A stretch of DNA of 38,712 nt, taken from Desulfobulbaceae bacterium. GTDB lineage: Bacteria; Desulfobacterota; Desulfobulbia; Desulfobulbales; Desulfocapsaceae. The position numbers were made by a program, and so were the translations under genes. The notes under the pieces are model-generated. The model was given only the letters and a program-made list of their open reading frames with translations, ran no database searches and had not been told where the DNA came from. The stretch is from assembly GCA_004796425.1 (NCBI GenBank), contig QZLB01000027.1, forward strand, positions 1 to 38,712, read 5' to 3'. The stretch's first letter is position 1, and the number at the start of each line of letters is the position of its first letter. Shown here piece after piece: positions 251-2,122 of this stretch.

Positions 251-778
251 CTAAATTCTGGATAATTTCTATTTTGATCACAAGTGGATAACTCATCTTA
301 ATAGGGGAAGGTGCTATTTCTCGTCGGTAGGAATATCTCTTCATCACCTGTGTTTTCGTGTCGAAATCGGGTTGGTGTAAATTGGCCTGAGAGCAGATTT
401 ATTACTCGCCTTGACAGATCCTCAATTTAATAGCTATCTGATTGATATATAAAAAATTAATCGATCTATTAGAAAAACCTTATCAGAGTATTAGTCGAAG
501 TTATGAGGGGCATTTTGTAACCGGAGTGGTGCTGGTCGGTAAAAAAAAGACGTACAAACAGTTAATTGTCTGATATATGTTAGCAATCGTTCCGCCCCGA
601 AAAAGGTAGTACTACAATGCAGTAATTGATTTCGGAACAGCTTTAGGGTAGCTCTAAAGAGAATGGTTCTTATGGCTCATGCTCCTGCTCTTACTGAGGG
701 ATGATTTCCAATCTCAGTTCACAGCGTGGAGTTTTGGTATATTTGTTCATGGATTAATCTCAACAAAAAGGAGAGAAC
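251..778. other. AT-rich intergenic gap, no gene seen
   Basis: About 530 bases without a credible reading frame, rich in A/T runs and scattered stop codons. It separates the leftward ribbon-helix-helix-like gene from the rightward cytochrome gene and so should hold divergent control regions. A TTGACA at about 409-414 is followed at 17-18 bases by a poor -10 match; no confident promoter for the cytochrome can be assigned. No CRISPR-like repeats or tRNA are visible. Confidence 0.6.
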
Positions 779-2122
779 ATGAAACACGTTTTAGCCATTG
801 CGGTGCTGTGTGTTGCGCTCTGCACACTCACCCCGCTCAATTCTTTTGGTGCAGGCGGCCCAAAGCCGGAGCCTCTGCCAAAAGCGAAAACCATTGCTGA
901 GCTGGCAGAGCGATACGATTCCAGCAGATGCATTGATTGTCACGAGGAGGCCCATGACGAGTGGTCCGAGTCGCTGCACTCCAAATCAATTCTCGGTTCT
1001 CCGAGGACGGCGCCTACCATCATCACGGCGATCGAAAAAGGTCTGAAGCGGTTTGAGTATTCGGGGGTGAAAGATGACTCCGATATCACCGTTGAGCACT
1101 TGATGATGTGTATGAAATGTCATCTCCCTCAACTGGATGAAGCAACGGATGATGTTGCCCGGGAAATTGTTGCCACGATTCGTGGCTGGCAGCAGGCGTA
1201 CAAGGATGGTGATGAAGACAAAGCTGAAGAGCTTGAAGAAACCATCGCCAGCCTCAACATCGGCTGTATGGTCTGCCACAACAAAATGGCACTGATTCAC
1301 AAATATGCCGATGGGTATCCACAGCCTGACACCGTGTATGGTTCTCAGGAAGGAGACCATGAAGACGAAGAGCTGCCTCTTATGGCTGAAGCACCAGCAC
1401 TTGGAGAGGCCATCTTCTGCGGTCAGTGCCATGGCCATGGGCCGAACTTCGAACTTGATCATCCATCGCAGTGCGCAACCGCTTACGGTAGCTACCTGTT
1501 TTCATATGTCGCTCACGGCGGCAGTGAAACGTGTCAGGAATGTCACATGGAAAAATCAGGATTGGGTCATAACATGCAGGCCTACAATTCTGAAGAGATG
1601 ATTGAAATGGCGTTCGACGTCAAGGTCGAAGGACGCTCACTGTTCTGGCGGAAGAACAAGGCAGAAGGGGTGCTTCCAATCGGGGTAATTGATGTTGAGC
1701 TTTACAACAAGACGGGGCACGCGATCCCGGATGGCTGACCGACACCAAACCGGCTGGTCCTGGAAGTGACCGCGAACACCCTTGACGGCGAAGAGATCTA
1801 CAAAGAATCAAAAATCTACATGCCATTCCCCGGACGGATGGGAAGAGGCAAGGAAATGGGTAGAGGCCCCTACGAAAAGAGTGGTATCTTAAGGGAAACC
1901 TCCATACCGGCACTCGCCCGTGTCCATGAGACGTTTGAAATCACCTTCCCATTTGAAGATAAACCAAGTGGTAAGACCACACGCAGAGAACTGCTCGAAG
2001 ATGAAATCGAGGTATCTGTGATTCTCTGGTACTTGCCCTTTGGTGAATTCGACGGCTACGAAGTTGAATTCTACGAGGAGGAGCGAACACTTGATCTCAA
2101 AACCGAGTGGATCTGGAGATAA
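779..2122 (+). CDS. Secreted pentaheme cytochrome c, probable selenoprotein (UGA codon 320)
   Basis: The start ATG follows AAAAAGGAGAGAAC. An N-terminal signal peptide (about residues 1-25, ending near NSFGA) sends the protein to the periplasm. Five CXXCH heme c motifs lie at residues 51-55, 111-115, 163-167, 214-218 and 252-256. A TGA at 1736-1738 interrupts the frame at codon 320, in the context GHAIPDG-UGA-PTPNRLVLEV. The same frame then stays open for 127 more codons to a TAA at 2120-2122, and the downstream part reads as an intact beta-rich domain. This gives 447 residues with Sec320. The G-H-x-I-P-D-G-x-P motif is at the junction between the heme part and the C-terminal domain; cysteine would be the expected alternative there. 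A hairpin with a GGCU loop follows the UGA. A likely role is periplasmic electron transfer, substrate unknown. The alternative is a nonsense mutation in a cysteine or tryptophan codon. Confidence 0.75.
1742..1767 (+). promoter_or_regulatory. Candidate bacterial SECIS hairpin after the in-frame UGA
   Basis: Starting four bases after the TGA, AC pairs with GU (1742-1743 with 1766-1767), CCA with UGG (1745-1747 with 1761-1763) and ACC with GGU (1749-1751 with 1756-1758), with small internal loops. This leaves an apical loop GGCU at 1752-1755. Bacterial SECIS elements lie directly downstream of UGA inside the coding region and have guanines at the start of a small apical loop. This one is close to the UGA (13 bases between UGA and loop) and short, so it is suggestive rather than certain. 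Confidence 0.45.

Follow-up and report, generated by a model that had tools for sequence, protein, structure and literature searches.

The UGA at codon 320 of the gene at positions 779 to 2122 (+ strand) is almost certainly read as selenocysteine (Sec). The gene lies in the window, the whole 38,712-nucleotide stretch of Desulfobulbaceae DNA analyzed here. It is a true and well-supported selenoprotein gene, but its family has already been described. The first-pass annotation had proposed a multiheme cytochrome c that is a new selenoprotein. The selenoprotein reading is borne out by the sel genes of the genome, by homologues with Sec or Cys, and by TGA in 98 other sequences. The word "new" has to be dropped, as the family is present in NCBIfam, in a paper from 2007 (PMC1914089), in the selenoprotein table of a 2026 review (PMC13188914), and in PDB under the name MccSep.

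The frame starts at ATG 779, has TGA at codon 320 (1736-1738), and ends with TAA at 2120-2122, all on the + strand. When the TGA is read through, 779-2122 (+) encodes 447 residues. Re-reading of this interval reproduced the five CXXCH motifs and the in-frame TGA that had been noted at codon 320, and the coordinates needed no correction. The features are as follows.

768..773, + strand, likely ribosome-binding site AAGGAG ahead of ATG 779 (direct reading of the sequence)
779..2122, + strand, extKL-type gene, 447 codons and then TAA, with a single in-frame TGA
779..853, + strand, probable signal peptide, residues 1 to ~25 (by eye; helix 2-20 in the predicted structure)
929..943, + strand, CXXCH heme motif 1, residues 51-55
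1109..1123, + strand, CXXCH heme motif 2, residues 111-115
1265..1279, + strand, CXXCH heme motif 3, residues 163-167
1418..1432, + strand, CXXCH heme motif 4, residues 214-218
1472..1474, + strand, Cys232, outside CXXCH, invariant in 104 of 104 sequences
1532..1546, + strand, CXXCH heme motif 5, residues 252-256
1613..2095, + strand, beta-sandwich domain, residues 279-439, with the TGA inside (predicted structure)
1718..1720, + strand, His314 in the GHxxPDG-U motif, invariant in 104 of 104 sequences
1736..1738, + strand, TGA codon 320, probably read as selenocysteine (frame, family column, and downstream hairpin)
1753..1773, + strand, putative bacterial SECIS-type hairpin, local fold -7.2 kcal/mol, with apical loop GGA at 1762-1764 and bulged U at 1767 and 1755

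The read-through protein scores 573.9 bits against NCBIfam NF040886 (cut-off 250), with residues 9-441 aligned to positions 4-423 of the 423-position profile. The title of this family is "multiheme c-type cytochrome (seleno)protein ExtKL". The score, the five CXXCH motifs, and the TGA after GHxxPDG all place the protein in ExtKL. Judged from these sequence features, this is an extKL ortholog (NF040886; MccSep of PDB 9wt8). Among Pfam models, only a cytochrome c7-like stretch of the read-through protein exceeded the cut-off.

Homologues were collected from 93 genomes of the family, 39 of which had a match, and from 395 genomes of the phylum, where 174 matched at E 0.001 and 40 were above the family cut-off. 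Named records, Desulforhopalus, Desulfofustis, and Desulfuromusa among them, contributed another 34 loci. Removal of identical sequences and of those shorter than 250 residues left 106 aligned sequences. For the counts of residue conservation, sequences of 350 residues or fewer were left out, leaving 104.

The column of codon 320 contains TGA in 99 of the 106 aligned sequences, Cys in four, Ile in one, Val in one, and a gap in one, whose sequence stops short of the column. Neither TAA nor TAG is observed there in any of the 106 rows. Cys or Sec at this site had been named beforehand as the pattern that would favor selenocysteine. The motif GHx[IVLF]PDG-U is present in nearly all of the 106 rows. 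Of the 104 sequences exceeding 350 residues, 100 have five CXXCH motifs. Outside these motifs, H67, H264, H314, and C232 are invariant in all 104, and H174 and H194 each occur in 83 of 104.

The assembly consists of 330 contigs, and a pseudogene or a sequencing error at codon 320 was considered for this gene. The homologues already refute it, and its probability is practically negligible. The identical TGA recurs in 98 further members of the family, drawn from many genomes and from named records, and is therefore not a sequencing error. The dN/dS ratio downstream of the TGA is 0.041-0.101 in six of eight comparisons, dS being saturated in the other two; upstream of the TGA, dS is saturated (-1) in all eight. 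The low ratios indicate that the part downstream of the TGA is under purifying selection.

Some loci have tandem ExtKL-like copies. At L130, a copy whose Sec is replaced by Ile or Val adjoins a Cys copy, and at L146/L084, such a copy adjoins one cut by the contig end. The Ile/Val rows retain the heme Cys and His residues that were checked, as well as C232. ExtKL-like copies at L056 (G007:C82) and L145 (G381:C11) have an additional TAG or a TAA in frame. They may be decaying paralogues or assembly errors.

Downstream of the TGA, the window sequence can form a hairpin whose loop, GGA, starts 23 nt after the UGA, with an energy of -7.2 kcal/mol. In the bSECIS model, as given in the available text of PMC13188914, the loop is 16-37 nt after the UGA, G is in the first two loop positions, and the minimum free energy is -7.5 or lower. 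The spacing and the GGA loop of the window hairpin fit this model, and its energy is just short of the limit. Across the family, the loop of the hairpin is GGA-like and starts 22-23 nt after the TGA; CU/AG pairs close it, and a bulged U separates them from GGUC/GACC below. Its five core pairs are formed in 84 of 99 TGA rows and in none of the six sense-codon rows, and the simple bSECIS scan reaches -7.5 kcal/mol in 61 of 99 and none of six; these row counts, like the next one, are not independent because the rows are related. When each row was compared with 200 synonymous recodings of its own peptide, 5% of them or fewer matched it in 44 of the 99 TGA rows and in none of the six sense-codon rows. 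Among the 15 TGA rows lacking the core, nine form ACCGAC/GTCGGT, a hairpin shifted so that its loop is 16 nt away, and six show altered forms.

Ten Desulfuromonas-type rows (L066, L071, L108-L111, L114, and L121-L123) show another hairpin register, in which 16 nt separate the TGA from the loop. Because these rows differ in register from the rest, it seems that the recoding signal has changed position within the family.

The codons themselves appear constrained. When the excess of codon identity was calculated between sequences less than 65% identical, the five highest values among 394 sites were at +6, +8, +11, +10, and +7 after the TGA, which correspond to the hairpin. The sixth highest is the codon preceding the TGA, which is GGC in 85 of 99 rows. 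The nucleotide directly 3' of the TGA is C in 97 of 99 rows. Covariation analysis found changes on both sides in five of nine pairs, and none of 500 shuffles scored as high; in cells changed on both sides, two slid controls exceed the hairpin (18 and 27 vs 16).

RNAalifold on the 99 TGA rows gave no consensus structure, and the 55-nt stretch of the window folds no better than shuffles (z 0.81). The synonymous-recoding test on the window sequence by itself gave p 0.115, and the Rfam scan of the window returned nothing at gathering thresholds. The hairpin emerged only from the comparison of rows, the codon constraint, and the loss in sense-codon rows. On these comparative data, it is well supported family-wide.

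The first-pass annotation had also suggested looking for the sel genes in the genome, and the machinery for Sec is complete. selA (615 bits, contig C96), selB (363.9 bits, C164), selD (358.9 bits, C311), and tRNA-Sec (73.8 bits, C68) are all above their cut-offs, and ARAGORN identified a tRNA-SeC with anticodon tca in the same genome. The tRNA scan of the window itself found none. The selD gene on C311 (L048) itself contains a TGA in frame, at residue 10 of the translated stretch. Sec-containing SelD is known.

The read-through frame by itself does not tell which residue is inserted, and the UGA could be read as another amino acid, such as Trp by suppression. This is very improbable given that four of the six sense-codon rows have Cys, that the SelB-type hairpin is seen in TGA rows only, and that the Sec machinery is complete. 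A deposited relative, MccSep, is also described as a selenoprotein with U325.

The structure was predicted from an alignment of 72 sequences, the window protein and 71 of its TGA-bearing homologues among the 99 TGA rows. The predicted fold has a mean pLDDT of 92.3 and a pTM of 0.86. In the model, the C-terminal domain includes strands 279-293, 297-310, 325-334, and later ones, and residue 320 lies in the loop 311-324. The order of the strands and the matches of residues 270-445 to beta-sandwich domains suggest that these strands form one beta-sandwich. A stop at residue 320, within this predicted domain, would therefore halve it.

This bears on an alternative mentioned in the available text of PMC1914089, in which the UGA terminates translation and the sequence after it is another gene, the second in a conserved operon. 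Possible start codons exist downstream of the UGA (GTG 1766 and ATG 1820), the G. sulfurreducens sequence is annotated as two loci (GSU2937 and GSU2936), and the 2007 authors, in the same available text, did not find a SECIS. Against two genes, the stop is TGA in all 99 stop-bearing rows and never TAA or TAG, and six homologues are fused, with a sense codon at the column. Constraint at the RNA level falls on the codons just after the TGA, and the split would cut the predicted beta-sandwich between strands 297-310 and 325-334. The chance that the two parts are separate genes is accordingly very slight, and a single protein containing Sec is by far the better reading.

The closest solved fold in PDB (copy to 2026-04-08) is the penta-heme cytochrome c552 of Thermochromatium tepidum (5ze8; Z 22.6, 310 residues, rmsd 3.0), which is 18% identical to the window protein. 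It has PHAMPTGAP where ExtKL has GHxxPDGUP, with Ala at the position of Sec. The structure searches of this copy did not list 9wt8, which was found by sequence search.

The invariant His314 is six residues ahead of Sec320. The histidines outside the CXXCH motifs are probably distal heme ligands. The first-pass suggestion that Sec serves as a metal or heme ligand or a redox center is plausible with this arrangement. Cys232 was considered as a selenenylsulfide partner of Sec320. It is invariant, yet it is retained in the Ile/Val rows, and c552 has an aligned Cys though Ala is at the Sec site. For these reasons, the partnership is not claimed.

The following course of events is proposed. The ribosome would decode UGA 320 as selenocysteine, directed by the bulged hairpin with its loop 23 nt after the UGA and served by SelA, SelB, SelD, and tRNA-Sec of the same genome. 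The product would be exported and then loaded with five c-type hemes. According to the model, Sec would be placed in the loop after His314 in the C-terminal beta-sandwich. It would lie near the heme held by this histidine and may take part in electron transfer or catalysis. Most likely, the protein would serve to reduce selenite, tellurite, or sulfur species in the periplasm or at the outer membrane. A reductase role of this kind, by analogy with the one proposed for the ext cluster of Geobacter, is a tentative assignment that we rate somewhat below even.

The window gene is outside any ext cluster, and its neighbors are unrelated. The cluster location is a feature seen in Geobacteraceae and does not form part of the NCBIfam definition of ExtKL. 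Those downstream in the window resemble, by eye, an RRM protein, a DEAD-box helicase, and a cold-shock protein. At L108-L111 and L113, extKL is part of an ext-type cluster, between ExtH/ExtI-type genes and genes for proteins with 12 and 9 CXXCH motifs. ExtH and ExtI of L110 are above the cut-off. Rieske-like and cytochrome b-like proteins were also recognized by eye in these clusters.

In Desulfofustis-type loci, the extKL-type gene precedes a rhodanese gene that likewise contains an in-frame TGA. Examples of this selenoprotein candidate are as follows.

L150, G000:C2:14839-16155, rhodanese selenoprotein candidate in the genome of the window
L099:7844-9214, rhodanese selenoprotein candidate, lipoprotein-like N-terminus (by eye)
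L100:8464-9801, rhodanese selenoprotein candidate

The candidate has three Pfam rhodanese domains, with the TGA in the motif FYCGG[FYP]T-U-G, and is matched in 69 of 93 family genomes (E 1e-40). The motif was found in 28 of 30 loci scanned, 25 with TGA and three with Cys. The TGA rows have a CGCC-loop-GGCG hairpin, the loop being mostly GGUCU, and the Cys rows are without the hairpin. NCBIfam scores were under the cut-offs, and the string "CxxxxU" is absent from the available text of PMC13188914. These sequence features possibly represent an undescribed selenoprotein family. By eye comparison of coordinates, the ExtKL and rhodanese genes are same-strand neighbors in nine of the 39 ExtKL-matched family genomes. 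The genome of the window has both, on different contigs. It is conceivable, and in our judgment rather unlikely, that ExtKL and the lipoprotein-like triple-rhodanese candidate (CGGxT-U) constitute a periplasmic two-selenoprotein pathway in which sulfane sulfur or selenium oxyanions are reduced. Cys/Sec of the rhodanese would carry the chalcogen, which would be reduced by the Sec of ExtKL next to a heme.

With the family named and structures solved, the identification itself is routine. The pair GSU2937 and GSU2936 of Geobacter was proposed as a selenoprotein candidate in 2007, when, according to the available text, neither a SECIS nor a non-Sec homologue was found (PMC1914089). Relative to that text, the family-wide hairpin, lost in the sense-codon rows, and the four Cys and two Ile/Val homologues are additions. 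In the accessible part of PMC5877670, extKL is called a proposed Sec cytochrome within extHIJKLMNOPQS, selenite and tellurite reduction is linked to its neighbor extI, and deletion data among the ext genes are described for extI only. ExtKL appears as NF040886 in the table of PMC13188914. The available texts also report pentaheme cytochromes of cable bacteria (sPHC) as structurally related to ExtKL (PMC11976967) and mention ExtKL relatives in partners of methane-oxidizing archaea (PMC10553843). Literature searches for a paper on MccSep, with subscription journals mostly outside their coverage, gave one unrelated match and general Sec papers.

In chemical terms, it would be unusual for selenocysteine to lie close to hemes, and its role should be testable with the U325A mutant of MccSep that has been deposited. 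The ExtKL protein of Geobacter sulfurreducens (GSU2937-GSU2936), as described in the sources available, likewise has five CXXCH motifs and an in-frame TGA. The Geobacter gene is located within extHIJKLMNOPQS, whereas the window gene stands alone. The best sequence matches in PDB, over query residues 5-427, are 9wt8 (E 7.1e-151), titled "Multiheme cytochrome c selenoprotein (MccSep)", and its U325A mutant 9wt9 (E 4e-151). The X of 9wt8 and the A of 9wt9 align with residue 320 of the window protein. In the MccSep entries (9wt8, 9wt9, 9wta, 9wtb, and 9wtc), GHSIPDGX is aligned to GHAIPDGU of the window protein, and by this alignment the two proteins are separate, clearly diverged orthologs.
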